From Rhodobacterales bacterium HTCC2255 (GTDB taxonomy: Bacteria > Pseudomonadota > Alphaproteobacteria > Rhodobacterales > Rhodobacteraceae), in assembly GCA_000153745.1 (NCBI GenBank), contig DS022288.2, forward strand, positions 17,999 through 65,290: DNA of 47,292 nucleotides. Direction: 5' to 3'. Below, one piece after another: positions 2,755-45,850 of the stretch. Both the position numbers and the translations under genes were made by a program. The notes below the pieces were generated by a model that worked only from the letters and a program-made list of their open reading frames with translations, had not been told where the DNA came from and did not search any database. Numbering within the stretch: the first letter of the stretch is position 1; each line of letters starts with the position of its first letter.

Positions 2755-3180
2755 TTAACCTGCTTTGTCGTTGATGCTGGATTCAAATTCCTCTGTCCAT
2801 TGGGCTAACGCTTGCTGAGCGTGTTCATCAACACGCCCTTTATTATTTTCGATCCACCAACGCTCCATTAAACGGACATTGCGGACGTTGGCTTTGAAGA
2901 ATAAATCAAATATATCACCGACAAGCGGGATAAATCCTAACCCAAAATCTAAAAAAGAATTCGTCAGCATTTTAAGCTGGATATCTTTTGGCACGCCTAA
3001 TTTTCTTCCAAGATGCACTATACGCAAACTAGCTAACAGCATAGTGGCATCACCTACTACAGGAATTAAGCCTATCAAAAAATCTAAGCCTACTCGGATC
3101 CCAATAAATGGGATCTTGACGGCCATATCTAAAATATTAGCAATATTTTGGGCGCGTAATAAAGGTTCAGGAGCTTGCAT
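2755..3180 (-). CDS. DUF4112 domain-containing membrane-associated protein
   Basis: A 141-residue protein with the DUF4112 signature: two similar glycine- and proline-containing hydrophobic segments, GLDFLIGLIPVVGDATMLLA and FLDFGLGFIPLVGDIFDLFF. Each is probably a membrane-embedded hairpin. The rest is charged, including KANVRNVRLMERWW. Function is unknown for the family. It begins 11 bases after hemH on the same strand and is likely co-transcribed with it. That placement does not by itself point to a haem role. Confidence 0.8.
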   Translation of the reverse strand: MQAPEPLLRAQNIANILDMAVKIPFIGIRVGLDFLIGLIPVVGDATMLLASLRIVHLGRKLGVPKDIQLKMLTNSFLDFGLGFIPLVGDIFDLFFKANVRNVRLMERWWIENNKGRVDEHAQQALAQWTEEFESSINDKAG

Positions 3181-3191
3181 AATAATTCCTT

Positions 3192-4271
3192 TTAGACTGG
3201 CGCATCTAATGCTTTAGCTTCGGCGGCACGAACGCTAGTATCGGTTTCAATATCCCAGCCTTGTAAATTATCTTGTAGAAGTGAAAATAACATATCAATA
3301 TGCGCATCATCCGAATTTAGGCATGGAATATACTGGTATGTTTCGCCACCATTTTCCATGAAATATTCCATGTTCTCCTCACCTATCTCTTCAATCGTTT
3401 CAAGGCAATCAGAGCTAAACCCAGGACAAATAACTTGCAGGGATTTGACCCCTTGAGCAGGTAATCCTTTCAACGTTTCATCAGTATAAGGCGTTAACCA
3501 TTCCTCACGTCCAAAACGCGATTGGAATGTGGTCATGTATTCACTTTTATCTAAACCCAGTGATTCAGCGACTAACCTTGTCGTTTTGTGGCATTCACAA
3601 TGATATGGGTCGCCATTTTTAAGATAGCGTTTTGGAATGCCATGGTAAGAAAAGACCAATTTATCCGTCCGCCCATGCGCTGCCCAATGCGCTTTTATGC
3701 TTTCGGCCAAACACGCAATATAGCGTGCATCATCATGATAATGCGAGATGAACCTTAAATCAGGTAACCAACGACGAGTCGTGAAATCTGCTGCCAAAGC
3801 ATCAAATGTCGAGCCGGTGGTTGAGGCACAATACTGAGGATATAAAGGTAATACGACGACTTTGCGGGCACCTTGTTCAAGCAAAGCATTCATTGCATTT
3901 TCGACACTCGGCTGACCGTAACGCATGGCATAACCGACAATGTATTTACCTGGAGAATATGCATCAAATTTTGCTTGTAAAGCAGCCGCTTGGTTTTTGG
4001 TATGGGTCAGCAGTGGTGAGCCATCCTCAGTCCATACTGTTGCATAGGCTTCAGCGGAACGTTTGGGACGGATATTAAGAATAATTAAATTAAGAATACA
4101 CCACCAAATTAACTTAGGCACTTCCACCACTCGAGGGTCAGATAAAAACTGTTTTAAATACGGTTTTAACGCCTGTTTAGTCGGTGCCTCTGGTGTACCT
4201 AAGTTACTGATCAGCACACCTATTTTATCGTTTTGGGCATGGGTGAACACGGTATTAGATGTGTACTTCAT
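3192..4271 (-). CDS. hemH: Ferrochelatase
   Basis: Inserts ferrous iron into protoporphyrin IX, the last step of protohaem synthesis. The N-terminal family motif GVLISNLGTPEAPT is at 18-31, the proposed metal-site histidine is H210 in FSYHGIPKRY, and the conserved acidic residue is E291 in ICPGFSSDCLETIEE. The length of 359 residues is normal for a proteobacterial enzyme. The hydrophobic stretch LIWWCILNLIILNI (about 54-67) is consistent with membrane association. The ATG has GAGAGA upstream. It leads a short minus-strand pair with the DUF4112 gene; hemE, another haem gene, is about 13 kb away. Confidence 0.95.
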   Translation of the reverse strand: MKYTSNTVFTHAQNDKIGVLISNLGTPEAPTKQALKPYLKQFLSDPRVVEVPKLIWWCILNLIILNIRPKRSAEAYATVWTEDGSPLLTHTKNQAAALQAKFDAYSPGKYIVGYAMRYGQPSVENAMNALLEQGARKVVVLPLYPQYCASTTGSTFDALAADFTTRRWLPDLRFISHYHDDARYIACLAESIKAHWAAHGRTDKLVFSYHGIPKRYLKNGDPYHCECHKTTRLVAESLGLDKSEYMTTFQSRFGREEWLTPYTDETLKGLPAQGVKSLQVICPGFSSDCLETIEEIGEENMEYFMENGGETYQYIPCLNSDDAHIDMLFSLLQDNLQGWDIETDTSVRAAEAKALDAPV

Positions 4272-32040: not shown

Positions 32041-32955
32041 CTATACAGCGGAAAACTTATTTTCTTTAGACAAATAGGCTTTACGTAAATGTTCAATTAA
32101 TAACTTTAATTTAGTGTCAGGTGAACGCATCTTAGGATAGACCGCATAAATACCAACACGCTTCGCCGTTTGGTCTGAGAGTAACTGGGTTAATTCGCCA
32201 TTTTGCAAATCATCATAGACGAGTACTCTAGGTAAATAGGCGATCCCTAACCCCGCTATTACCGCTTGATGCAATGCGTTGAGATCATTGGCCACAAAAT
32301 TACCTTGAACCACTTCTGTATATTCTCCCTCTGCGCTCAAAAAGCGCCAATGATTTGGCTGTGCTTCGTTGTATTTATACGTTAAACAATTATGGAATTT
32401 AAGTTCATTGCTCGATTCTGGTATGCCTTGCTGTTTAAGGTATTGCGGCGTAGCAACAATGACCCAATGCGAATCCACTAAGCGTCGTGCTAACAGACTA
32501 GAATCTTCCAAATAGCCAGTTCGAATAGCTAAGTCATAGCCTTCCTCGATTAAATTGGCAAACCGATCATCAATGATCATTTCTATCGTCACTTCTTTAT
32601 ATAAACGACAAAACTCCGCAATCGCTGTAGTTAAGGTCAAACGTGCTGAAACCGATGGAACGGTAATTTTAATTTTGCCACTAATAGAGTCACTATAACC
32701 ACACACTGCGTCATGTGCTTCTTGCAATGCATCTTGAGCGACCTTAGCTTTGGCATAAAGGGTTTTACCACCATCCGTTAGGCTCAGCTTTCGAGTTGAG
32801 CGATACAGTAATTGCATATTCAGGGCTTTTTCTAAGCGTGCGATACGTTTTGAGACGACTGAATTTGTGATCTCAAGTAACTGTGCCACTTTCGAAAAAG
32901 AACCAGCATCTACCACCTGAACGAATAAAAAAATGTCATCCGCCTTTGCTTGCAT
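32041..32955 (-). CDS. LysR family transcriptional regulator
   Basis: A 304-residue regulator. The N-terminal winged HTH (about 4-63) reads FVQVVDAGSFSKVAQLLEIT, then NSVVSKRIARLEKALNMQLL. The C-terminal periplasmic-binding-like domain is typical (GKIKITVPSVSARLTL, GLGIAYLPRVLV). It resembles the CrgA/AaeR-like subgroup. The ATG at 32955 has AAAGGTGA at 5 bases and is better than the GTG three codons upstream. It is divergent from the D-lactate dehydrogenase gene, so by the usual LysR logic it probably controls that gene. The 183-base gap contains an AT-rich, imperfect inverted repeat near 32990-33010. Confidence 0.9.
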   Translation of the reverse strand: MQAKADDIFLFVQVVDAGSFSKVAQLLEITNSVVSKRIARLEKALNMQLLYRSTRKLSLTDGGKTLYAKAKVAQDALQEAHDAVCGYSDSISGKIKITVPSVSARLTLTTAIAEFCRLYKEVTIEMIIDDRFANLIEEGYDLAIRTGYLEDSSLLARRLVDSHWVIVATPQYLKQQGIPESSNELKFHNCLTYKYNEAQPNHWRFLSAEGEYTEVVQGNFVANDLNALHQAVIAGLGIAYLPRVLVYDDLQNGELTQLLSDQTAKRVGIYAVYPKMRSPDTKLKLLIEHLRKAYLSKENKFSAV

Positions 32956-33138
32956 GAAAATCACCTTTATTAGTAAGCATATCTTATATAATACTATCGT
33001 ATATTATATCAATTTTGGAAACAGTTATTTTCATCTCTTGCTCTTATTTTGTGTATTATTTCGGCGTATATTGAGTACATTAGCTTTTTTGTAGATCCAG
33101 TCACTCTGGCACCTACGTTAACCTTTGGAAATCCATTT

Positions 33139-35970
33139 ATGTCATCACTCGCCCCTGCTTATATTAATGCGATTCGAGCTATTTTGCCTAAAGCTCAAAT
33201 GATTGATGATATCTCACGTCGTCGTGCCTATGCGACGGATGCCAGTTTTTACCAATTAATCCCACAACTGGTGTTAAAAGTCAGTTCCATCGAACAAATG
33301 CAATCCATCTTAAAGACGAGCCAAACACATAACGTTAGTGTTACGTTTCGGGCTGCCGGCACTAGCTTATCCGGCCAAGCAGTCAGTGATTCGGTGTTAC
33401 TTTTATTGGATGAACATTGGCGCGGTCATGAAATTATCAATGACGGCCAACAAATCAAACTGCAACCTGGTGTCATTGGCGCACAAGCCAATCAATATCT
33501 AGCTCCTTACCATCGTAAAATAGGGCCCGATCCAGCTTCGATAAACACTTGTAAAATTGGGGGGATCGCCGCAAATAATGCATCAGGCATGTGTTGTGGT
33601 GTGGCGAATAATACCTTTTATACTTTGGCTGGTATGACAATCATCTTAGCTGATGGCACATGTGTGGATACACTCAACCCCGAAAGTGTGGCTACATTTA
33701 CTGCTTCACACGCTGACTTGCTCAACCAATTAACTCAACTGGGTGAAGACGTTCGTAACGATAACGTGTTATCGGATTTAATTGCGCATAAATATCGCCT
33801 AAAAAACACCACCGGCTATGCTATTAATGCTTTGACTGATTTTACTGATCCTATCGATATATTGGTACATCTAATGGTCGGTTCAGAAGGTACATTAGGA
33901 TTTATCGCTGATATTACCTATAACACGGTGGTCGACCATCAACAAAAAGCTTCTGGTCTATATTTGTTTGACTCGCCTCAACAGGCTTGCCAACTGGTCG
34001 ATCAATTACGCGATAGTCCTGTAAATGCTGTGGAATTATTAGATCAGCGCGCTTTAGATTCCGTTCAGGGTAAGCCGGGATTACCCGATAGTTTTTGTGG
34101 TCGTAATAAACGCTGCACGGCTCTATTGATTGAAACAGCAGCGAGTGATGCTAACACGTTACATCAGCAAATCGCTCAAGTGACTCAACTAGTCAATCGC
34201 TTTAACCCCATTGAATCGATTGATTTAACCACCGACAAGATCCTATCTCAGCAGTTGTGGGCTATTCGCAAAGCCACTTTCCCAGCGGTAGGGGCAGTAC
34301 GCGAAACCGGCACCAGCGTCATTATTGAAGACGTTTCATTTCCACTTGAACAAATGGATCAAGGCGTCACGCGTTTACAAGCCTTGTTTGATAAATATGA
34401 ATACACCGAAGCGTTGATCTTTGGGCATGCACTCGCAGGTAACCTTCACTTTGTATTCACCCAAGCATTTGATACTGACACTCAAATTAAGCGCTACGAT
34501 AATTTCATGCAAGATGTTGCTCAACTTGTTGCTGTAGAGTTTGGTGGCTCACTCAAAGCCGAACATGGCACTGGGCGCAATATGGCACCCTTTGTCGAAC
34601 TAGAATGGGGCAGCACGGCTTATGCGATCATGAAACGTATCAAGCATCTCATTGATCCTCAATTCACTCTTAATCCAGGTGTCATTCTCAACGATGATCC
34701 CCAGTCCCATATTAAGCACCTTAAACCTTTACCACGAGCTAATGATATTGTGGATAAATGTATCGAATGTGGTTTTTGTGAGCCGGTCTGTCCATCCAAA
34801 GAATTGACCTTTACTCCACGTCAACGCATTGCAATATGGCGACGGATCCAACAGCTTGAAGAACTTGGCTATCTAATTGATGCACAACGCCAAGAACTTG
34901 CACAACTCAAGCATGATTATCAATATTATGGCATCGATACGTGTGCTGCTACCGGGCTGTGTGCAGAACGTTGCCCTGTCGGTATAAATACGGGCGATTT
35001 AATCCGTGAATTACGCGCCGAATCACATGGACGCTTTGGTCAAAGGATTGCATCGTTCTCTGCTGAGCAGTTTGCACCGATCACTAAAACAGTTAAAGCT
35101 ACTTTAGGGGTAGCAGGTCGCATAAGTAAAATCATTGGACCAGAATCAACGAATGTCCTAGGTAAAATTGTGCATAACATTTCCAGAAATACGATCCCGT
35201 TGTGGTTTGCCAGTTACCCACAAGCCGCTCATGATCTGCCATCGTTCGTGGCGGCATCAAGCGAACGTCCCAAAGTCATTTATTTCCCGAGCTGCGCAAC
35301 ACGCACTATGGGTGCCGACCCTCATGCTAAAGAGCAGCGCAGCGTGCCAGAAGTCGTCCAATCACTCTTTGATAAAGGCGGATATGAGGTCATCATTCCT
35401 GAATCTGTCGATGGTTTGTGTTGCGGCATGCCATTTAACTCTAAGGGATTTGTCCAGCAGGCTCAACAGAAAGGGAATGTGTTACTAACAGCTTTACAAG
35501 CAGTGTCAAAAGAAGGCGCGTATCCCATCGTATTTGATACCAGCCCCTGTAAATTACGTTTACAGGAATTGGGTCATGAGTTACCTATATTTGAAACCAC
35601 CCAATTTATGTCCCAGTTTGTGCTTGATAAGCTCCACATTACACCAACCACAAACCCTATTGCGTTGCACGTAACTTGCAGCAGTCAAAAGATGGGGATC
35701 GCACATGATTTACGTCATGTCGCTAACGCTTGCGCGACACACGTCGTTGAACCTGAAGGAGTCGCATGTTGTGGTTTTGCCGGCGATAAAGGTATGACAG
35801 TACCTGAATTAAATGCCAGTGCATTATCTGGTTTAAAAGCTCAAATCCCGCAAGGATGCTCAAAAGGTTACAGTAACTCACGTACCTGTGAAATCGGTTT
35901 AACCCAGCATTCAGGCATTGACTATCAATCGTTACTCTTTTTGCTTGATGAGGTCAGTGTCGCCAAATAA
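33139..35970 (+). CDS. FAD/Fe-S D-lactate dehydrogenase, Dld-II type
   Basis: A 943-residue fusion of a FAD-linked oxidase and an iron-sulfur/cysteine-rich subunit. The FAD_binding_4 domain shows FRAAGTSLSGQAVSDSV, GPDPASINTCKIGGIAANN and VGSEGTLGFI. An FAD oxidase C domain follows with HALAGNLHF. Two 4Fe-4S motifs come next (CIECGFCEPVCP and CAATGLCAERCP), then two CCG domains (DGLCCGMPF; GVACCGFAGDKGM). This is the architecture of Shewanella Dld-II, a respiratory D-lactate dehydrogenase feeding quinones. D-2-hydroxyglutarate as substrate cannot be excluded. The ATG at 33139 (MSSLAPAYI) fits the family; the longer frame starts at a TTG. Confidence 0.88.
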   Translation: MSSLAPAYINAIRAILPKAQMIDDISRRRAYATDASFYQLIPQLVLKVSSIEQMQSILKTSQTHNVSVTFRAAGTSLSGQAVSDSVLLLLDEHWRGHEIINDGQQIKLQPGVIGAQANQYLAPYHRKIGPDPASINTCKIGGIAANNASGMCCGVANNTFYTLAGMTIILADGTCVDTLNPESVATFTASHADLLNQLTQLGEDVRNDNVLSDLIAHKYRLKNTTGYAINALTDFTDPIDILVHLMVGSEGTLGFIADITYNTVVDHQQKASGLYLFDSPQQACQLVDQLRDSPVNAVELLDQRALDSVQGKPGLPDSFCGRNKRCTALLIETAASDANTLHQQIAQVTQLVNRFNPIESIDLTTDKILSQQLWAIRKATFPAVGAVRETGTSVIIEDVSFPLEQMDQGVTRLQALFDKYEYTEALIFGHALAGNLHFVFTQAFDTDTQIKRYDNFMQDVAQLVAVEFGGSLKAEHGTGRNMAPFVELEWGSTAYAIMKRIKHLIDPQFTLNPGVILNDDPQSHIKHLKPLPRANDIVDKCIECGFCEPVCPSKELTFTPRQRIAIWRRIQQLEELGYLIDAQRQELAQLKHDYQYYGIDTCAATGLCAERCPVGINTGDLIRELRAESHGRFGQRIASFSAEQFAPITKTVKATLGVAGRISKIIGPESTNVLGKIVHNISRNTIPLWFASYPQAAHDLPSFVAASSERPKVIYFPSCATRTMGADPHAKEQRSVPEVVQSLFDKGGYEVIIPESVDGLCCGMPFNSKGFVQQAQQKGNVLLTALQAVSKEGAYPIVFDTSPCKLRLQELGHELPIFETTQFMSQFVLDKLHITPTTNPIALHVTCSSQKMGIAHDLRHVANACATHVVEPEGVACCGFAGDKGMTVPELNASALSGLKAQIPQGCSKGYSNSRTCEIGLTQHSGIDYQSLLFLLDEVSVAK

Positions 35971-36004
35971 TCCAATTAAAAAACTAGCGTTGATGCGTAT
36001 GATA

Positions 36005-36346
36005 TCAGCGCTTTCTAACTGGTTTATATTGCGTTGCACAATATCCCCGTGTAACGTCCTTAGAGCGAAGTGCACCATGCTTAGTTTTACGTCCACTAAC
36101 ACGCGCTCGCCAATTATTAAATGTTTTACGCTTAATACTTGCTCGCATGAGATTGATTACCTGAGGCTCTGTTAACCCAAATAACGCTTCAATGGCTTCA
36201 AATGGCGTGCGATCTTCCCATGCCATCTCAATAATTCGTGAGCGAGTTTCTTCATCAAGTTTATCTTTGCGAATTGATGAAACATCTTGTTTTACTGACT
36301 TTAACTTAGCCGAAGCATGCTTAGGTGTTCTTGGTGTATCTAACAT
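36005..36346 (-). CDS. TIGR03643 / DUF2805 family protein
   Basis: A 113-residue basic protein. The family core is well kept: RIIEMAWEDRTPFEAIEALF, GLTEPQVINLMRASIKRKTF, NNWRARVSGRKTKH. It ends GYCATQYKPVRKR. The pattern suggests a small helix-turn-helix-like fold, but the function is unknown. In other bacteria this family often lies near photolyase/cryptochrome genes; none is seen here. It lies downstream of the FAN1-exonuclease gene on the same strand (38-base gap) and is convergent with the D-lactate dehydrogenase gene. Confidence 0.85.
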   Translation of the reverse strand: MLDTPRTPKHASAKLKSVKQDVSSIRKDKLDEETRSRIIEMAWEDRTPFEAIEALFGLTEPQVINLMRASIKRKTFNNWRARVSGRKTKHGALRSKDVTRGYCATQYKPVRKR

Positions 36347-36384
36347 AGGTATCTTGGTGTAATTTTATCTACTTATTACTACGG

Positions 36385-37326
36385 TTATAATTCAGAAATA
36401 GATTGCTCTGCCAAACGATGTTCATTAATAATAGTCAATAATTCATTCGCCGCAATAGCATCCGACATTGCACGGTGATGACGTGACATCTCAATCCCAA
36501 AATGTCGTGTCAAATTCGCCAGTGAATAAGACGCTAGGCCAGGTCTGGCTTTGCGCATTTCTCTAACCGTACACAGTTTTGCACGACTAAAATGCCGCTC
36601 TAACCGAGTGAATTCTTGTTTAATGAAGCCATAATCAAAATTCACATTATGCGCGACAAAAACACAGCCTTTGGTAAATTGTGCGACCTCGTCTGCCACC
36701 TCAGCAAAAATAGGCGCATTGCTCACCATAACATCATCAATTCCGGTTAACGCAGTAATATTTCGGGGGATCCTTCGTTTCGGGTTAAGTAAAGTCTGAT
36801 ACTCATCTACTACTTGTCCATTAATCACTTTGACCATGCCAATCTCAGTGATTTTATGACTCGTAGCTCGTCCGCCTGTCGTTTCAATATCCACAACAAC
36901 ATATGGCTGCATGGGATTAACTCCCCATGACACCGTTGTAATACCTACTGAAATCCCCGCTTTGGATAACATGCTCAGGGTGAGTAATTGGTTTTTACGG
37001 ACGCTATCTCCGGTTGCTTTGATCTCTTCAAAGCGCACTTGCTGGTTATCAATCACCATTATGTCAGGAAAGCCGTCGCTATACATTGCATAATCCTGTG
37101 CCATCGCTTTTAGCACGTTACCGAGCGACGCCGCCTTGGCATGTTCGATAAAGAGGACCAACCGCTTTAATATTTGTTTATGCCAACGAAAGATACCATT
37201 AGGCTCACCATAATGCGCAGTGGCTTGGGCGATAATGTGTTGTTTAAGCGCATCCATCGTCTCACATTGAATCAATAATGCCTCTACCCGTTCAGTTTGA
37301 TCATGGTATAAATTATTATGACGCAA
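36385..37326 (-). CDS. VRR-NUC nuclease plus DEDDh exonuclease domains (C-terminal piece of a frameshifted FAN1 fusion)
   Basis: A 313-residue frame starting at a poor TTG. Residues 40-135 form a VRR-NUC domain: GEPNGIFRW, catalytic P87-D88 (DGFPDIMV) and E101-x-K103 (FEEIKATGD), then KNQL and GISVGITTVSWG. From 141 to the end is a DnaQ-like DEDDh exonuclease with D146 and E148 (VVDIETTGG), D231 (AHNVNFDYGFI), H284 and D289 (HHRAMSDA). The VRR-NUC part is the missing end of the FAN1-like protein encoded directly upstream in another frame. Joining them by restoring one base at 37333-37335 gives RPLSLRHNNLYHDQTE, which fits FAN1. All active-site residues are present, so the loss of frame looks recent or may be a sequence error. 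Confidence 0.85.
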   Translation of the reverse strand: MRHNNLYHDQTERVEALLIQCETMDALKQHIIAQATAHYGEPNGIFRWHKQILKRLVLFIEHAKAASLGNVLKAMAQDYAMYSDGFPDIMVIDNQQVRFEEIKATGDSVRKNQLLTLSMLSKAGISVGITTVSWGVNPMQPYVVVDIETTGGRATSHKITEIGMVKVINGQVVDEYQTLLNPKRRIPRNITALTGIDDVMVSNAPIFAEVADEVAQFTKGCVFVAHNVNFDYGFIKQEFTRLERHFSRAKLCTVREMRKARPGLASYSLANLTRHFGIEMSRHHRAMSDAIAANELLTIINEHRLAEQSISEL

Positions 37327-38549
37327 TGATAAGGGCGCCAGTCAAATTCATTACCCACTGCAAATGCAGGATCAAATATAATGTCCCAAAACATCAAACC
37401 AAATAAACCCGGCCATAATTCGTTTTCAGTACGTAATGCTTGGATCCCACTCGCTTGGTAGTGATCAACTGTCGCGGCTTCCACTCGATGTTTATGGACT
37501 TCATCAAGTACCAACTGACGAGCACTATTACGTAGCATATCTGTCATGACACTGGTCCGTTTTTTTTGGTATTTACGTGCTAAAAAATCCTCAGCAAACG
37601 CCAATATATGTGAATTATCAGGCTGCTCAATAATCGCTTCTAATTGTTGTTTAACCTGCTCTTTATCAGCGTGCTGATACCGTATACGCAAAGCTTTTTC
37701 TTGAGCCTCGGGTAGCTCAGAGGCATCTAATATCGGTAATACTGTTTGCCAATCACTTTTTAGTTGTAATTGATACTTGGCGTATAACCATAAATATTCG
37801 TTACGCTTTTGTCGCGCAAGTGTGCCGTGTGCATCGGGCAAGGTATCGATACACAACGTAGGCTGTTGCGCGATTCGTCCAAGTTTGTGAATGCGTTTTA
37901 ATTCACTTAGCGCAGATGCATAGAAATATGTCGACGTCGCTTCATTGAGAGAAGCAAACCTGGCTTGCATTTGAGCTACTTTTTTACGTGTCCTCATCAC
38001 GCCTAAATCACGCATTGAAAACTGATTAAGGCGGCTACCCACATTCCCAAAAAACAAGAAAAGTAGATAATCGATGATCGTATCTACTTGGCGATACACA
38101 TATTGATGAAATATGGCATGCTCAGACACCAGAGCAAATGTTAAATGCGCTTGTGCTAAAGATAACAATTGCGCTTTAGAAGCACTGCTTAGCACATTAT
38201 CCACATCATGATCACGCAATAAAACCAATAACTTTGGCTTTGTCAGTTGCTCAAGCCATTCAAGGAAATGGGTTGCAGGGATCTGAGTTAGCCATTGTTT
38301 ATCAAAGCAAACTTGCAAAGCATGCTCTGGGTCAGGGATTTCATCGTATCGTAATGAAGCACTGTCGATAAACGGTGATTTACGGTTTAAACTGCGCGCT
38401 AAAGTACACTGGACATGATGTGGTTGCTGTTTAAATACCTCAATAAATGCCCAATGCTGCTCTTCCAATAGCACTTCGCAACTACCACTGATAAAGCCTA
38501 AACATTCATGCAAGTGTTCTAAATAATAATAAGTAGGTAAATCTTTCAT
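37284..38549 (-). CDS. FAN1-like structure-specific nuclease, N-terminal part (frameshifted)
   Basis: A 421-residue frame matching the N-terminal and helical domains of bacterial FAN1. It has YYYLEHLHECLGFI at the start, TLARSLNRKSPFIDSASLRYDEI, and the pre-nuclease block TENELWPGLFGLMFWDIIFD. FAN1 is an interstrand-crosslink repair nuclease that trims DNA 5'-3' from flaps. After EFDWRP the frame leaves the family and runs 15 codons to a stop (YHCVIIIYTMIKLNG). The VRR-NUC catalytic domain continues in the -1 frame in the next ORF. Alone, this piece lacks the nuclease site and should be inactive. The ATG at 38549 is consistent with the family start. Confidence 0.85.
   Translation of the reverse strand: MKDLPTYYYLEHLHECLGFISGSCEVLLEEQHWAFIEVFKQQPHHVQCTLARSLNRKSPFIDSASLRYDEIPDPEHALQVCFDKQWLTQIPATHFLEWLEQLTKPKLLVLLRDHDVDNVLSSASKAQLLSLAQAHLTFALVSEHAIFHQYVYRQVDTIIDYLLFLFFGNVGSRLNQFSMRDLGVMRTRKKVAQMQARFASLNEATSTYFYASALSELKRIHKLGRIAQQPTLCIDTLPDAHGTLARQKRNEYLWLYAKYQLQLKSDWQTVLPILDASELPEAQEKALRIRYQHADKEQVKQQLEAIIEQPDNSHILAFAEDFLARKYQKKRTSVMTDMLRNSARQLVLDEVHKHRVEAATVDHYQASGIQALRTENELWPGLFGLMFWDIIFDPAFAVGNEFDWRPYHCVIIIYTMIKLNG
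37333..37335 (-). other. Frameshift site in the FAN1-exonuclease gene
   Basis: The GGG (CCC on the coding strand) falls where the upstream frame stops resembling FAN1 and the downstream frame starts. One extra C would read cgc-ccc-tta and restore a single protein of about 735 residues. No X-XXY-YYZ slippery heptamer is found at the junction, so programmed -1 frameshifting is unlikely. Confidence 0.7.
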
Positions 38550-38685
38550 ACCAAACAGTGTATATACATACAGCTTTTTTGTAAAATCATTGCACTATTT
38601 AGTTTTTTTCAGTGTACATAAACAATCTTTTTTCTGATTCGTTGCGTAAGTATAATCATCTTCAATTAATAAGTGACTCGCCCCA

Positions 38686-38877
38686 ATGAGCCTAACGGAA
38701 CCTAAAACGTTTGAATGTCCATATTGTATGGTAATTAACGATGTGGATGTTGATATTGACAATGATGTTGGGCAACAACAAATCGTTGATTGCCAAATTT
38801 GCTGTTCACCGATAGAGTTATTGATTCAAGATTCAGGCTGGGGTTTAGAAATGATTGCCAAGAGGGATGACGAATAA
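38686..38877 (+). CDS. CPXCG motif-containing cysteine-rich protein
   Basis: A 63-residue protein with two cysteine pairs, FECPYCMVINDVDVDID and VDCQICCSPIEL, forming a likely zinc ribbon, followed by an acidic end. The family motif is CPxCG; here the first pair is CPYC followed by methionine rather than glycine. Function unknown. A TATAAT at 38651-38656 may be its -10 box. Its stop overlaps the next ATG by one base (TAATG), so it is translationally coupled to the flavin reductase-like gene. Confidence 0.85.
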   Translation: MSLTEPKTFECPYCMVINDVDVDIDNDVGQQQIVDCQICCSPIELLIQDSGWGLEMIAKRDDE

Positions 38878-39509
38878 TGCACTTTAATGCTTGCGATATC
38901 AGCAACATGGAACAGCGCTATCGTGCTAACTTCATCAACACGTTATCCGGTTTTAAAAGTGCTAACTTAATTGGATCCGTTAATGCTGCAGGGCAACACA
39001 ACTTAGCGATTGTCAGTTCCGTTTTCCATATTGGCGCACACCCACCTCTAATAGGGATGATAATGCGTCCACATACTGTCCCGCGCGATACGCTTCAAAA
39101 TATCAAAGACACTGGTGTATATACGATTAATCATGTCCACAGTGATTTTGTAAAGGCCGCCCACCATACTTCAGCTCGTTTCCCTGAAGAGGTCAGTGAA
39201 TTTGAAGAAGTTGGATTAACTCCTTGGTTCAGTGCAACGCATAAAGCCCCATTTGTACAAGAATCTCGAGTGAAAATCGCCTTAGAAGTCCAAGACATTC
39301 AACTTTTAGCGCTGAATCAAACCGAGCTAGTGATTGGCCAAGTGGTTGAAGTTGTTGTCGATGAGCAGAGTATCGCTGAAGACGGATACATCGATCTTGA
39401 ATCATTAGGAAGTGCCACTATCTCCGGTTTAGATAGTTACCATCAAACACAACGAATTTCCCGATATGGATATGCAAAAGCAGGTGAACCTGTTACAAAG
39501 ATAAAATAG
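38877..39509 (+). CDS. Flavin reductase-like FMN-binding protein
   Basis: A 210-residue protein of the flavin_reduct split-barrel family. Recognisable parts are FKSANLIGSVNAAGQHNLAI, VSSVFHIGAHPPLIGMIMRP with DTLQNIKDTGVYTINHV, and late GLDSYHQTQRISRYGYAKAG. It is the flavoredoxin-like branch that binds FMN; partner oxidoreductase unknown. It overlaps the preceding CPXCG gene by one base and forms an operon with it. A small membrane protein gene follows after 13 bases. Confidence 0.88.
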   Translation: MHFNACDISNMEQRYRANFINTLSGFKSANLIGSVNAAGQHNLAIVSSVFHIGAHPPLIGMIMRPHTVPRDTLQNIKDTGVYTINHVHSDFVKAAHHTSARFPEEVSEFEEVGLTPWFSATHKAPFVQESRVKIALEVQDIQLLALNQTELVIGQVVEVVVDEQSIAEDGYIDLESLGSATISGLDSYHQTQRISRYGYAKAGEPVTKIK

Positions 39510-39522
39510 TGAGAACGCTTAT

Positions 39523-39720
39523 ATGAACCCAGCACTGGATCCGAACTTTGACCAATTATTAATTATTTGCGGTATTATTAGTGTCATTGTAATTGCATTT
39601 GTTTTGTTCGTGATCAAACTACCAGATGAAGAAATCCGGTATGATGAAAAAGATACAACGTCAAAAAATATATCTAAACCTAATTGCAGTCGTTCACAAA
39701 ACGAAGATGAAGAGTTTTAA
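39523..39720 (+). CDS. Small single-pass membrane protein, unknown function
   Basis: A 65-residue protein with a hydrophobic segment at about 12-32 (LLIICGIISVIVIAFVLFVI), then a charged cytoplasmic or periplasmic tail (PDEEIRYDEKDTT) ending in NEDEEF. I recognise no family. GAGAA lies before the ATG. It is 13 bases behind the flavin reductase gene and 36 bases before the HiPIP gene, so it probably belongs to the same transcript. Confidence 0.65.
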   Translation: MNPALDPNFDQLLIICGIISVIVIAFVLFVIKLPDEEIRYDEKDTTSKNISKPNCSRSQNEDEEF

Positions 39721-39756
39721 TTTAATCCATATAGAATGAGAAACTAAGGAAGCATA

Positions 39757-40044
39757 ATGAAAGATATTAAACGCCGTGACTTTTTAAAATTATCAGGTGG
39801 TGCACTAATTGGTATGACACTTGGTTCAGTATCATTACGCGCTGCTGCAGAGGAACTTGATCCTTCAGACCCAACTGCCGCAGCATTAAAATATGCGAAA
39901 GTATCACCTGTCGAAGGTGCATACTGTGAAAACTGCATGTTTGTGCAAGGAGAAGACGGCCAAGAACTTCGACCTTGTGCAATTTTCCCAGGCAAACAAG
40001 TAGCGGCAAAAGGCTGGTGTTCTGCCTGGGCGAAGAAAGCATAA
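39757..40044 (+). CDS. High-potential iron-sulfur protein (HiPIP), Tat-exported
   Basis: A 95-residue precursor of a small periplasmic electron carrier holding one [4Fe-4S] cluster. A twin-arginine signal (R6-R7 in KRRDFLKLSGGALIGM) ends near RAAAEE (about 32). Cluster ligands are C57, C60, C74 and C88 in YCENCMFVQG, RPCAIFPGK and KGWCSAW, with the correct HiPIP spacing. Such proteins carry electrons from the bc1 complex to terminal acceptors, but no partner is encoded nearby. The ATG is preceded by AAGGAAG. A hairpin follows the stop. Confidence 0.95.
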   Translation: MKDIKRRDFLKLSGGALIGMTLGSVSLRAAAEELDPSDPTAAALKYAKVSPVEGAYCENCMFVQGEDGQELRPCAIFPGKQVAAKGWCSAWAKKA

Positions 40045-40070
40045 TTACATAAAATATGAGAGTTAATCGT

Positions 40071-40112
40071 TAGAATAAGAGATGAAACACGCTCTTATTC
40101 TACGTCGCTTTT
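40071..40112 (+). terminator. Intrinsic terminator after the HiPIP gene
   Basis: An 11-bp perfect stem, TAGAATAAGAG (40071-40081) with CTCTTATTCTA (40092-40102), is followed by CGTCGCTTTTTC. It ends the CPXCG-to-HiPIP gene group. The rest of the gap to 40254 shows nothing recognisable. Confidence 0.7.
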
Positions 40113-40254
40113 TCATTCAAATAATGTAAGGCCATTAACTGTTCTGTTATCCAAAGGCCTAATATATACCTCATCTTTGCCCAGCACATTATGATAAGAT
40201 TGGTGTGATAATTAATCTATTCAAAGAATAAACATATTTCCTTTAGGTGAACCT

Positions 40255-41757
40255 ATGTCAAACACCCTATATACGCTGATTTTTTTATTGCTTACACTTT
40301 CATGCATTGGCAAAGTCTTAGCGACTGAGCAACCTGTTGCTACCGATCCTGAAGCACGTATGAGTATCACTCAACATAGTGCAAAGTTTAATGGTAAAAC
40401 CGTGAAATACTCGGTCCACGCTGGCGATCATTTTTTATATGATGAGCACCGCACTCCTAAAGCCAACATATACTCAACCGCGTATTTTGCTGATCAACAA
40501 ACTTCCTCTGAACGTCCAATATTATTTATCTTTAATGGCGGGCCTGGCTCTTCAAGTGTCTGGTTACATATGGGGGTATTTGGCCCTAAACGTGTTGTCT
40601 TGCCAAGTAATGCAGAACCTGTCGGTGCGCCGCCTTACGATTTGGCTCATAATCCTCTTAGTTTAATCGACATAGCAGACATGGTATTTATTGACCCTGT
40701 AGGTACTGGCTACTCTCACCCTTTAGGCAAATACCAAGGAAAAGACTTTTGGGGCGTCAAAGAAGATGCTGTCGTAATGGCCGATTTTGTCAGGGCGTTT
40801 ACCCGTCAACATAATTTATTTAATCGACCAAAATATCTCGTGGGTGAAAGTTATGGCACCACTCGCGCTGGCGCAATGGTTAAAGAGCTCCAAGAAGGCT
40901 GGGGAACATTTGATTTATCAGGCGTGATGCTCATCTCGTCGATTGTAGATTTTCAAACCGGTGATTTTAATGTAGGTAATGATTTACCTTTTATTACGTT
41001 CTTACCCACTTATGCCGCCACTGCTTGGTATCACAATGCGATTGATCGCAGCCAATTTGCAAACCTTGAGGCCTTTCTTCAGGAAGTCCGCGACTTCGCT
41101 CTGGGAGAATACGCAACGGTTCTACTTAAAGGTAGTTTGGCTTCTGAGGCTGAACGTGAGTCGGTGTTATTGCAACTTAAGCGTATGACGGGTTTAAGTA
41201 AAGCATTTTTAACCCGCGCCAATTTACGCATTAATGAATTTCAATTCATGAAAGAATTAAAGCGTGATGAAGGACTCGCCGTGGGACGTTTAGATAGTCG
41301 ATACTTAGGTAAAGAGAGTGATTTAAATGCCGAACGTTTTGAGGCTGATCCTTCTGGATACGCTATCGATGGCGCATACACTGCATTAATCAATCATTAC
41401 ATGCGCACCGAACTAAACGTTAAGCGTAATGCTCAATATCATATTTTAAGTGGTCAGGTCTTCAGTAACTGGAATTGGTTGTATGAGCGCAGTGCCCGCA
41501 GCCAAGGATTTTTAAATGTGACGCCTTTTATCGCTAAAGCGATGCGACAAAACAAAGATTTTCGTGTCTTTGTTGGCAATGGTTATTATGACCTTGCGAC
41601 TCCATTTTTCGCCACAGAACATTCTATGAACCATAATGGTATAGATCCGTCTCGGGTCACTATGAAATATTATGAAGCCGGTCACATGATGTATATTCAT
41701 GAACCTTCTTTAATTGCTATCGTGAACGATATGCGTCAATTTTTACAGGCACAATAA
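40255..41757 (+). CDS. S10 family serine carboxypeptidase
   Basis: A 500-residue exported peptidase. Signal peptide about 1-23 ([16 protein letters not shown]). Family S10 motifs: oxyanion-site FNGGPGSSS (93-101), nucleophile S199 in [12 protein letters not shown]446 in [10 protein letters not shown], and H477 in [11 protein letters not shown]. Catalytic triad is complete. It should remove C-terminal residues from peptides in the periplasm or outside the cell. The next gene, prmA, starts one base after its stop, an uncommon pairing that probably means shared transcription. Confidence 0.93.
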
Positions 41758-41758
41758 C

Positions 41759-42637
41759 GTGGCATATATCCAACTTAAAATTAATATGATTGCAGAATAC
41801 GCTGAAGCGCTTGGTGATATGCTATCAGGTAATGGCGCTCAAGCTGTCACATTCTTAGATGCAAAAGACACTCCGATGTATGAACCGAAGCCAGGGGAAG
41901 TAATGCTGTGGCCTGACACTCAAGTCATTGGATTATTTGATGCCGCGGATGATATGCAGGGAATTATTGAACGACTGGCACAATCTAAGCTACTTAAAGA
42001 CGAATTTGTATATGTCCTTGACCCACTCGAAGATAAAGATTGGGAGCGTGAATGGATGGACAATTTCCACGCTATGCGTTTTGGTGAGCGTCTATGGGTA
42101 TGCCCTTCATGGCGTGAAATTCCCGAACCTGATGCGGTCAATGTGATGCTCGATCCGGGGCTGGCATTTGGTACCGGGACACACGCAACTACAGCGTTAT
42201 GCTTACGTTGGTTAGATAGTTTGTCCCTTTCAGGAGCAAAAGTACTCGATTTTGGATGTGGTAGCGGGATTTTAGGTATTGCGGCTTTAAAATTAGGTGC
42301 TGCGGACATGTTAGGTATTGATATTGATCCACAAGCTTTACAAGCCACTGAAGCGAACGCTCAACGTAATGGTGTCGCAGATAAACTTACCCTTGCATTA
42401 CCAAAAGATGATACTCAATACCTGGCTGATATCGTATGTGCCAATATCCTTGCTGCGCCACTTCGTGAGCTAAGAGAGGTCATCAGTGGATATTGTAAAC
42501 AAGGCGGACAAATTATCCTGTCAGGTATATTAGTCGAACAAGCAGCAGAAATCGCCGATCTTTACCGAGCTGACTTTTCCATCAATGACATCGTTGTGGA
42601 AGGTGATTGGGCAAGTATTAGCGGCACCAAGCTCTAG
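41759..42637 (+). CDS. prmA: Ribosomal protein L11 methyltransferase PrmA
   Basis: Trimethylates several amino groups of ribosomal protein L11 using SAM. The N-terminal recognition domain starts MAYIQLKIN. The central linker and the catalytic site have [15 protein letters not shown] (131-145), SAM motif VLDFGCGSG (162-170), and [12 protein letters not shown]. The length of 292 residues is usual. The start is GTG at 41759, one base after the peptidase stop; the family alignment supports it. It is followed by dusB-fis after 184 bases. Confidence 0.96.
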
Positions 42638-42693
42638 TTATTTACTTTCATACATGTCAAGTAAAAAAATTACATTTTGATTAAAAAATAGTC

Positions 42694-42722
42694 TTTTCAA
42701 ATAACTCAAAAAGGCGTAATAT
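42694..42722 (+). promoter_or_regulatory. Candidate stringent-type promoter of dusB-fis
   Basis: TTTTCA (42694-42699) and TAATAT (42717-42722) are 17 bases apart, followed by TGCGCTCC. A GC-rich discriminator and a likely start at C are features known for the fis promoter of E. coli. The leader to the dusB start would be about 95 bases. Confidence 0.45.
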
Positions 42723-42821
42723 TGCGCTCCTTTGACGAATTCCAGGTTATTAATTGCACAATATGCGTGTTTTTTATGCATGTTGCGATTATTTTTTTTG
42801 GTTAAGTACATGAGGTCGTAG

Positions 42822-43823
42822 TTGAACTCTCCTATTCAAATTGGTGCTTATTCACTAGAAAATAACTTGATGTTAGCACCTATGGCAGGTGTAACTGATA
42901 GGCCTTTTCGTCAAATGTGCAAACAGATGGGCGCAGGTTTAGTGGTTTCAGAGATGCTCTCGAGTAACCCTAAGGTTTGGCATACTGAAAAGTCAAAAAT
43001 GCGTATGGACCATACTGGGGAACATGGAGTTCGTTCCGTTCAAATAGCGGGCTCTGACCCGAATCTCATGGCTGAGGCTGCACAATTTAATGTCAATAAC
43101 GGTGCGCAAATCATCGATATCAACATGGGTTGTCCAGCAAAGAAAGTAAATAAAAAAATGGCAGGCTCTGCGTTACTGCAGTATCCAGAAATCGTAGAAG
43201 AAATTCTCGATGCTGTTGTTAATAGTGTAGATGTGCCAGTGACACTAAAAATACGAACTGGTTGGGATACGGATAATCGAAACGGTGTGCAAATTGCTAA
43301 ACTTGCACAACAGTACAATATCCAATCCTTAGCAGTACATGGCCGAACCAAAGCCTGTATGTATAAAGGTAATGCTGAATACGATACGATCCGTGCAATT
43401 AAACGTGCGGTGGAAATCCCAGTCATTGCTAATGGTGATATTACGACACCAGAAAAAGCGAAATATGTTTTGCAACACACCAATGCTGACGGATTAATGA
43501 TAGGTCGTGGAGCCCAAGGAAACCCTTGGATTTTCCGTGAGATTTTACATTATTTAGAGCATGGTGAGCGTTTACCTGAACCAGAGCTAACCGAACAATG
43601 CACTGTCATGTTGGAACATGTGTCCAATGTCCACAAATTTTATGGTGGAATTAGTGGTGTAAGAATTGCTCGAAAGCATGTGGGTTGGTATATCGCTAAA
43701 TATGATCAAGGAAGAAGTTTTCGTGAACACTTCAACGGTATTGATGATGCTGCAGAGCAGCTAGATGCACTAGAAATGTTCTATTCACGACTTCATAAGA
43801 AATTAGTTTCTTCAGTCGCTTAA
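42822..43823 (+). CDS. dusB: tRNA-dihydrouridine synthase B
   Basis: FMN enzyme that reduces uridine to dihydrouridine in tRNA. The TIM-barrel start has LMLAPMAGVTDRPFR (17-30), catalytic C104 in NMGCPAKKVNKKMAGSALL, and VHGRTKACMYKG and GLMIGRGAQGNPWIF later on. The length of 333 residues is standard. The start is a TTG at 42822 with GAGGT at 6 bases; the ATG at 42810 runs into a stop at once. It is co-transcribed with fis (28-base gap), the classic dusB-fis operon. Confidence 0.96.
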   Translation: MNSPIQIGAYSLENNLMLAPMAGVTDRPFRQMCKQMGAGLVVSEMLSSNPKVWHTEKSKMRMDHTGEHGVRSVQIAGSDPNLMAEAAQFNVNNGAQIIDINMGCPAKKVNKKMAGSALLQYPEIVEEILDAVVNSVDVPVTLKIRTGWDTDNRNGVQIAKLAQQYNIQSLAVHGRTKACMYKGNAEYDTIRAIKRAVEIPVIANGDITTPEKAKYVLQHTNADGLMIGRGAQGNPWIFREILHYLEHGERLPEPELTEQCTVMLEHVSNVHKFYGGISGVRIARKHVGWYIAKYDQGRSFREHFNGIDDAAEQLDALEMFYSRLHKKLVSSVA

Positions 43824-43851
43824 TTGTCTAAAATAATAAAGAGCAGTATAT

Positions 43852-44145
43852 ATGTTTGATCAAAATGCATCGTCACCGTTTACTACTATAGTTACTACCC
43901 CTGCACAAACTACCGCCCAGAAGCCTTTACGCGAGTCAGTAAAACAAGCAGTTAACAAGTATCTTAAGCAGCTAGAAAACACAAATATCGAAACCTTATA
44001 CGATATGGTGTTAAGCGAAGTGGAAGCACCACTACTTGAAGAAGTGATGACCTACACCCGTGGTAATCAGACTAAAGCAGCGAATATGATGGGTATCAAC
44101 CGTGGTACTCTTCGCAAAAAATTAAAGCAATACGGCATGGGCTAG
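43852..44145 (+). CDS. fis: DNA-binding protein Fis
   Basis: Nucleoid protein that bends DNA and activates rRNA and many growth-related promoters; abundant in early exponential phase. The 97 residues compare with 98 in E. coli. The C-terminal HTH (about 70-95) is nearly identical to E. coli, with [20 protein letters not shown] and KLKQYGM. The N-terminal arm ([13 protein letters not shown]) is the region used in recombinase contact. It lies downstream of dusB and before a terminator. Confidence 0.98.
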
Positions 44146-44171
44146 TATTGCAAAGGGGATTCCCCTAAGCT

Positions 44172-44206
44172 AAGAGCACCTTTTGAGGTGCTCTTTTCGT
44201 TTTACC
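44172..44206 (+). terminator. Intrinsic terminator after fis
   Basis: AAGAGCACCT (44172-44181) pairs with AGGTGCTCTT (44186-44195), loop TTTG, followed by TTCGTTTT. A smaller GGGG-ATT-CCCC hairpin precedes it at 44155-44165. Confidence 0.9.
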
Positions 44207-44251
44207 TACGCATAGAATTTTTCACTAAGCACACATAAGAAGTATATTATT

Positions 44252-45850
44252 ATGTCTACATCATCTCCTATTCGCCGCGCTTTGTTAAGCGTATCTGATA
44301 AAACTGGCATCGTTGAGTTTGCCTCAGCTTTAGTCGCCCAAGACGTAGAATTGTTATCTACGGGTGGCACAGCAAAGCTGCTTGCAGAAGCGGGCTTACC
44401 TGTGATTGAAGTGTCTGATTACACGGGACATCCTGAAATTATGGATGGTCGAGTAAAAACCTTACACCCAATGATTCATGGTGGTATTTTAGCTCGCCGT
44501 GGTCAAGACGAAGCGGTGATGGCAGATAATAATATCCAAGCTATTGATTTAGTTGTGGTCAACCTATATCCGTTCGCAGCAACCGTAGCCAACCCTGACT
44601 GTACTTTACCTGACGCAATTGAAAATATTGATATTGGTGGCCCAACCATGGTCCGTGCAGCAGCTAAAAACCATAACGATGTCACTATTGTGGTGAATGC
44701 TTCTGATTATGCTCATGTACTTCAACAAATGTCAGATAATAATGGCGCGGTTGATCACGCGACCCGATTTGACCTGGCGATTAAAGCATTTGAACATACG
44801 GCAGAGTATGATGGCATGATTGCTAACTACTTTGGCGCTCGTTTAGACTCTGCAAATTGTGATGATGATTGTGGACATGAGCACAGTGAATTCCCGCGTA
44901 CTTATAATATCCAAGTAAGCAAAAAACAAGATTTACGCTATGGTGAAAACGCTCATCAATCTGCAGCATTTTATGTTGAAAACGATATCCAAGAAGCATC
45001 AGTTGCGACTGCAGAGCAATTACAAGGTAAAGAGTTATCGTTTAACAATATCGCTGATACCGACTCCGCCTTAGAATGTGTTAAAGAATTTGCTGAGCCA
45101 GCTTGTGTTATAGTGAAACATGCTAATCCATGTGGTGTAGCATTAGGCGACGATATTTTAGCCGCTTATAACCGTGCTTATCAGACTGATCCAACATCGG
45201 CTTTTGGTGGTATCATCGCATTTAACCGTGAACTTGATGCGAACACCGCTCAAGCAATTATCGATCGTCAGTTTGTAGAAGTTATCATCGCTCCCACTGT
45301 CAGCAAAGAAGCACAAACAGTACTAAGTGCTAAACAGAACGTACGCGTATTAGCCTGTGGTGATTGGCAAGGCCAGCTTACTGATGGGTTCGATTTCAAA
45401 CGCGTCAATGGTGGATTATTGATCCAAGAGCGTGATTTTGGCATGGTTGAATTAGATGATTTAACTGTCGTCACTAAAGTCAAGCCAACTGAAGCTCAGT
45501 TACAAGATCTATTATTTACGTGGAAAGTGGCTAAATATGTTAAATCTAATGCGATTGTTTACTGCAAAGACGGTATGACGATTGGTGTGGGTGCCGGTCA
45601 AATGAGCCGTGTCTATTCTGCAAAAATTGCGGGTATTAAAGCCGCAGATGAAGGTCTTGTGGTTGAGGGCAGTGTCATGGCATCAGATGCGTTCTTCCCA
45701 TTTAGAGATGGAATTGACGCAGCCGCTGCTGCAGGTATTAGTGCGGTCATTCAGCCAGGCGGTTCGATGCGAGATGATGAAGTCATCGCTGCTGCTGATG
45801 AAGCGGGCATTGCTATGGTATTTACTGGCATGCGCCATTTCCGCCACTAA
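44252..45850 (+). CDS. purH: Bifunctional AICAR formyltransferase / IMP cyclohydrolase
   Basis: Performs the last two steps of de novo purine synthesis. The N-terminal MGS-like IMP cyclohydrolase domain has [27 protein letters not shown] and [12 protein letters not shown]. The C-terminal formyltransferase domain has [29 protein letters not shown] and [12 protein letters not shown]. At 532 residues it is close to E. coli (529). A short cysteine- and acid-rich stretch ([13 protein letters not shown]) sits at the domain junction, a variable place in the family. No PurR box was evident in the 45-base upstream region. It is followed by purD after 24 bases. Confidence 0.97.

Follow-up and report, generated by a model that had tools for sequence, protein, structure and literature searches.

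The gene described here joins a FAN1 body, a VRR-NUC domain and a complete DEDDh exonuclease, in that order, in a conserved single-protein architecture, and is not a product of joining reading frames. In all 88 homologous loci (L009–L016 and L017–L096; 87 distinct proteins, L013 and L062 encoding the same one) the three parts lie in a single open frame. The intact gene probably encodes one DNA damage-induced repair enzyme of about 720 residues with two nucleases, whose activities and cooperation we infer from sequence and from a structural model. Its parts are known ones, and genomes carry the combination, a variant of FAN1, frequently. The earlier note on this DNA did not know it as a described architecture, and the literature searched, an open-access library, yielded no account of a FAN1-DEDDh protein.

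The Gene in the Window and Its Intact Counterpart

In the window, i.e., the whole stretch of 47,292 nucleotides that was analysed, the gene is present as two pieces on the minus strand. The first, at positions 37284..38549, is an ORF of 421 aa that ends early at a frame break and carries the N-terminal half of FAN1: the HTH (residues 7-87; Pfam FAN1_HTH, PF21315, E 1.1e-14), a middle helical or TPR-like region, and then residue 375, the Glu of TENELW and the upstream one in the FAN1 metal site. The second, at positions 36385..37326, is an ORF of 313 aa that overlaps the first in a different frame. It comprises the VRR-NUC domain with its PD...ExK motif (minus strand, 36925..37242, residues 29-134; VRR_NUC, PF08774, E 1.8e-12), followed by the DEDDh exonuclease domain (minus strand, 36439..36900, residues 143-296; RNase_T, PF00929, E 1e-35). 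Both ORFs exist at the coordinates and lengths that the earlier note had given, and the domain order it had proposed, FAN1 N-terminal and helical domains, VRR-NUC and a complete DEDDh exonuclease, was confirmed by Pfam and by residue positions: PD at 87-88, ExK at 101-103, D146, E148, D231, H284 and D289 all stand in the second ORF where it had placed them. As read, neither piece has a whole FAN1 active site, because E375 falls in the first ORF; the exonuclease domain is whole.

That the two ORFs are one gene, as had been assumed when they were joined, is borne out by their relatives, in which both halves match one open frame (88/88 loci), and by a near-identical intact copy. The latter, L052, lies on a metagenome-assembled contig of Glaciecola sp. 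HTCC2999 and encodes 721 aa in one frame (FAN1_HTH, E 2.1e-14). The contig is 99.27% identical to positions 32099-44540 of the window over 12,443 alignment columns with a single gap, which must therefore be the frame break of the window; the break arose by a mutation of recent date or is an isolated error in the sequence. The occurrence of the halves in two frames in the window itself would agree with an artefact, either two separate genes or a frameshift mis-join, but this is practically ruled out by the single frames in 88 of 88 relatives, one of them on the 99.27% identical contig.

The contig that carries the window was most likely mis-binned, making the assembly chimeric, since it is near-identical to a Glaciecola contig (99.27% over 12.4 kb) and its PrmA is distant from those of same-genus genomes (only 32-36% identity in the best rows for eight such genomes). 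A second PrmA, encoded on the other contig of the assembly, is 32% identical to that of the window. The fused gene is absent from 12 same-genus genomes, 10 of which have exonuclease-only matches and two none; if the contig is mis-binned, this absence is uninformative on the window's close relatives.

Distribution of the Fused Gene

A scan of genome contigs that used an alignment gave 186 relatives confirmed by tblastn; the best 80 of the 186 were retained, and every one of these is fused. Further full-length relatives are present in plasmid records of Pseudoalteromonas and Bradyrhizobium and in other genomes. Three annotated plasmid copies are labelled only 'exonuclease domain-containing protein', and in one plasmid copy (L011) the annotated start falls inside an open frame of 734 codons. 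At the nucleotide level no near match to the window was found in plasmid DNA, the weak match obtained (66.6% over 15% of the query) being to two Pseudoalteromonas records. The fused gene occurs in many marine and soil bacteria: among the Gammaproteobacteria its hosts are Pseudoalteromonas, Alteromonas, Glaciecola, Paraglaciecola, Aliidiomarina, Rheinheimera, Alishewanella, Arsukibacterium and others, and among the Alphaproteobacteria, Bradyrhizobium, Denitrobaculum, Hellea, Robiginitomaculum and others. With its FAN1_HTH domain, its VRR-NUC motif plus upstream Glu and a predicted body fold like that of Pseudomonas FAN1, the fused protein qualifies as a FAN1, the KIAA1018 group of VRR-NUC proteins. 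Ending after VRR-NUC is usual in bacterial FAN1 proteins but does not define them, and in 88 of 88 loci a DEDDh domain follows. The exonuclease is split off as a separate gene in none of the 88, the outcome of the homologue alignment that the earlier note had proposed as a check.

Two genomes hold more than one copy. An 8.0-Mb genome (G373) has two fused genes, L014 and L016, both near a Bradyrhizobium plasmid copy, as judged from the pairs L012-L014 and L014-L016. In the metagenome assembly of Glaciecola HTCC2999 a second fused gene (L192, G397:C12) is 81% identical over the FAN1 body; it is either a paralogue or comes from a second strain in the bin, and the best SOS-like site it has carries a single mismatch.

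Catalytic Residues and Selection

The residues of both putative active sites are invariant in the 88 loci (L052 numbering): E375, D496, E509 and K511 in FAN1, and D554, E556, D639, H692 and D697 in the exonuclease. E375, which we take to be the upstream metal-site Glu of FAN1, has an equivalent Glu also in 14 of 14 unfused FAN1s. D496, E509 and K511 align with D507, E522 and K524 of Pseudomonas FAN1 (PaFAN1), which have been superposed on D230, D245 and K247 of TseV3, according to PMC9635880.

Among ten chosen pairs, the dN/dS ratios (Nei-Gojobori) were 0.010-0.119 for the exonuclease domain, computable in all ten, and 0.014-0.127 for VRR-NUC, computable in eight, the others being saturated. 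These low ratios show that both nuclease domains are kept under purifying selection. The distances of the VRR-NUC and exonuclease domains correlate (Pearson 0.77, Spearman 0.57), as expected under co-inheritance.

Predicted Structure and Closest Known Proteins

The AlphaFold2 model of L052, built from a 59-row alignment, has a mean pLDDT of 92.8 and a pTM of 0.83. In the model the last strand of VRR-NUC ends at residue 542 and the first strand of the exonuclease begins at residue 550, which leaves a linker of about seven residues. Foldseek against the PDB ranked PaFAN1-DNA complexes (5y7q) first; human FAN1 came next, followed by the exonucleases of DinG and DnaQ; the 5y7q match over the FAN1 body had E 2.5e-24 and TMt 0.80, and DnaQ/epsilon chains matched the exonuclease part with TMt 0.84-0.87. 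None of the 50 Foldseek rows listed is a PDB entry with both the FAN1 and the exonuclease parts. Sequence alignment to solved structures gave the same division, with PaFAN1 at residues 6-545 and the exonucleases of DinG, PolC and DnaQ at about 547-711.

PaFAN1 (PDB 4R89, 5Y7G and 5Y7Q) resembles the fused protein in its HTH, helical middle and VRR-NUC domain with D507/E522/K524, but stops after VRR-NUC, whereas the fused family has an extra C-terminal DEDDh exonuclease of about 165 residues. Human FAN1 aligns by sequence in its VRR-NUC part (residues 356-538) and by fold search in its body; UBZ, SAP, TPR and VRR-Nuc domains are named for it in PMC9635880, with no DEDDh-type exonuclease among them. 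The PRK07883-type proteins, in which a DEDD exonuclease is combined with a UvrC-like GIY-YIG nuclease, likewise have a DEDDh domain joined to a repair-type nuclease, and PRK07883 is the best NCBIfam match of the exonuclease domain, far under the whole-model cut-off. In this type, however, the exonuclease is N-terminal and its partner is GIY-YIG (in the Tsukamurella example, RNase_T then GIY-YIG), whereas in the fused FAN1 it is C-terminal and its partner is FAN1/VRR-NUC. The exonuclease of Staphylococcus aureus DinG (PDB 8ZEF, 9II8) is 37% identical to the fused one, with an rmsd of 1.6-1.7. It belongs to a protein of about 890 residues that has a helicase-like part and no FAN1.

Origin and Spread of the Fusion

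Unfused FAN1s were collected from a survey of 369 genomes in the class of the Alteromonas marina genome G399, the host of locus L045. A FAN1_HTH match was present in 20 of them, 19 above the cut-off and one further match below it. Those above the cut-off comprise 14 unfused FAN1s (frames of 539-631 aa), four fused ones (718-755 aa), including that of the centre genome G399 itself, and one truncated frame (118 aa). In the class to which the window's assembly is assigned, four of 385 genomes match, at five places with the window included, and all five are fused. A genome of this class encodes the same fused protein as Denitrobaculum (L013 and L062), so the window's assembly is probably filed under Alphaproteobacteria. 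Eleven of 12 genomes with a fused gene have one FAN1_HTH gene; G397 has two, the second of which (L192) is also fused.

A tree of the FAN1 body, with 41 fused (thinned) and 14 unfused members, requires one label change (SH-aLRT 100); it came from a quick search, has two long unfused branches, and its fused rows were gathered by similarity to a fused query. In the samples used, the sequences thus place the fused FAN1s in one clade apart from the 14 unfused ones. The exonuclease domains of 37 fused proteins also form one clade (SH-aLRT 97) when compared with 40 phage rows (alternate ones out of 80), seven DnaQ rows and one exonuclease-GIY-YIG protein. The latter, from Tsukamurella and the single row of its kind, is sister to the FAN1-exonuclease domains (SH-aLRT 93) in a tree in which 38 of 82 inner branches are weak. 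The simplest reading of these trees would be one fusion event followed by spread, all sampled members being in Pseudomonadota.

Two other sources of the exonuclease were considered. No DEDDh gene was found near the 14 unfused FAN1s in the DNA of up to about 5 kb on each side, several of these stretches being cut by contig ends, and the exonuclease as a gene neighbour of FAN1 before fusion was rejected on these grounds. A scan of viral contigs gave 92 relatives; the best 80 of the 92 match the exonuclease end only (query residues 522-721), and the FAN1 profile has no match in the open frames of these 80 viral loci and seven DnaQ loci. Phage origin of the fused gene was rejected since these relatives lack FAN1.

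LexA Boxes Upstream of the Fused Gene

The LexA motif is CTGT-N8-ACAG in most beta- and gammaproteobacteria and GTTC-N7-GTTC in alphaproteobacteria, according to PMC3323433 and PMC8565304. In the window a LexA/SOS-box-like site of the former type with one mismatch lies on the minus strand at 38558..38573 and begins 24 nt upstream of the start codon; the box is identical in L052. Alone it is weak, given one-mismatch sites at 27 of 467 other ORFs, but as a family feature it is strong. The span scanned ran from 160 bp before each gene to 30 bp into it, with both strands considered for the alpha motif. The exact alpha motif is present in 16 of 16 alpha loci (two of them hold the same gene, and four, L013-L016, were placed in this class by likeness), against 0 of 72 gamma loci. 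The exact gamma motif is present in 20 of 72 gamma loci, or in 52 of 72 within one mismatch, and in 0 of 16 alpha loci. Among the other ORFs of the same loci, the alpha motif was found in 5 of 72 (alpha loci) and the exact gamma motif in 1 of 395 (gamma loci). Shuffled upstream sequences gave 0.2% exact and 5.4% one-mismatch gamma sites, and 0.4% exact alpha sites per orientation (250 bp). For exact gamma sites, 20/88 against 1/467 corresponds to a Fisher value of 2.5e-16; kinship among the loci is ignored in this value and in the counts. Two exact sites and one one-mismatch site precede the 14 unfused FAN1s (one upstream stretch being only 51 bases long).

The gamma box is unevenly distributed: it is present in 10 of 12 Pseudoalteromonas, 20 of 21 Alteromonas and 7 of 7 Glaciecola loci, in 1 of 7 Paraglaciecola loci, and in none of 4 Idiomarinaceae and none of 6 Rheinheimera/Alishewanella/Arsukibacterium loci. 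For the 20 gamma loci that lack a site, extending the upstream span to 400 bp added little. A lineage-appropriate LexA box near the start codon, a feature of SOS regulon members, is thus found in the family and is missing in some genera, so LexA control is not universal. From the boxes we infer that the fused gene is under LexA control and induced by DNA damage. The presence of two LexA box types before the same gene in two classes suggests that damage control may have been kept or regained across the change of regulator specificity. The SOS boxes are an addition to the earlier finding on the fused gene. As background, Pseudomonas PA1865, described as guiding interstrand-crosslink unhooking, responds to UV-C and to ciprofloxacin with induction and to hydrogen peroxide with repression (PMC12796719).

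Proposed Function and Alternative Readings

DEDDh enzymes degrade in the 3'-5' direction. FAN1 enzymes cut 5' flaps and have 5'-3' exonuclease activity (PMC4103454 and PMC9635880), FAN1 activity being reported for the human, mouse and Pseudomonas proteins in PMC4103454. Trimming of both strand polarities by one polypeptide, as put forward in the earlier note, is plausible on the domain content. In the proposed mechanism LexA would repress the fused gene and DNA damage would lift the repression. The FAN1 body would then bind a branched or nicked DNA end, such as a 5' flap, a crosslink or a stalled fork, and the VRR-NUC domain would cut the 5'-ended strand. Joined to the last VRR-NUC strand by about seven residues, the DEDDh domain at the C terminus would trim the adjacent 3' end. 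It would thereby remove a terminus that is blocked or mismatched, or a released fragment, and allow a polymerase to fill in.

A narrower version, a LexA-controlled crosslink machine in which FAN1 unhooks the 5' side and DEDDh resects the 3' side of the same lesion, is put forward only tentatively. If true, it would mean UvrABC-independent clearing of both strand ends in these bacteria. Alternatively, the exonuclease might, with a similarly modest chance, be mainly an end-cleaner or proofreader outside crosslink repair (in recombination, mismatch correction or fork resection), with FAN1 as the structure-specific platform for its delivery to branched DNA. The domain is nearest to the exonuclease domains of the exonuclease-UvrC-like, DinG-related and PolC models, enzymes that serve general repair and replication. 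It is also the most conserved domain, which favours the end-cleaner reading: the mean pairwise identity is 0.61 for the exonuclease, 0.42 for VRR-NUC, 0.37 for TPR and 0.31 for HTH+SAP (for the 68 of 88 rows that thinning at 90% left, with our own domain limits). The four FAN1 metal-site residues are, however, invariant too (88/88), so the FAN1 site is also kept as an enzyme.

The exonuclease domain could be largely structural; the full DEDDh set (D-x-E, D, H, D) is kept in 88 of 88 loci. Action of the domain on RNA or R-loops, not on DNA 3' ends, is improbable: DEDDh folds include RNases, and the ribonuclease ERI3 is also among the Foldseek matches, but the nearest relatives of solved structure by sequence are the DNA enzymes DinG, PolC and DnaQ. 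An anti-phage defence nuclease is a still more doubtful reading; PADLOC models (PDC-S48 and Cas-associated DEDDh) match the exonuclease domain, and a gene belonging to a GTPase-associated system is found close to one plasmid copy, but the PADLOC matches are confined to the DEDDh stretch and the SOS boxes point to repair.

FAN1 is relevant to human kidney disease and to repeat-expansion disorders. Its partner activities are hard to learn; a fusion that occurs in nature suggests that 3'-5' trimming is one of them, and the fused bacterial protein could serve as a system for testing this.

Neighbouring Genes

A DUF2805/TIGR03643 gene (minus strand, 36005..36346) lies downstream in the window, 38 bp past the stop of the fused gene. 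In 27 of 85 regions a member of its homologue cluster comes after the fused gene in the same orientation (the regions are those of the window and 84 loci, L013-L016 being left out; only the window's member was matched to Pfam/NCBIfam), and these neighbours are confined to the Alteromonas-Glaciecola group. The DUF2805 gene is possibly an operon partner of the fused gene that shares its SOS control; as a general operon partner it is ruled out by this count and this restriction to one group.

On the other side of the fused gene and divergent from it, a small plus-strand ORF (38686-38877, 63 aa) has the cysteine pairs CPYC and CQIC and presumably resembles CPXCG-type zinc proteins. It adjoins a 210-aa ORF (38877-39509) that has no NCBIfam match. 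On the Bradyrhizobium plasmid with copy L012, a gene for an SOS response-associated peptidase (SRAP; 2874-3623) immediately precedes the fused gene in the same orientation.
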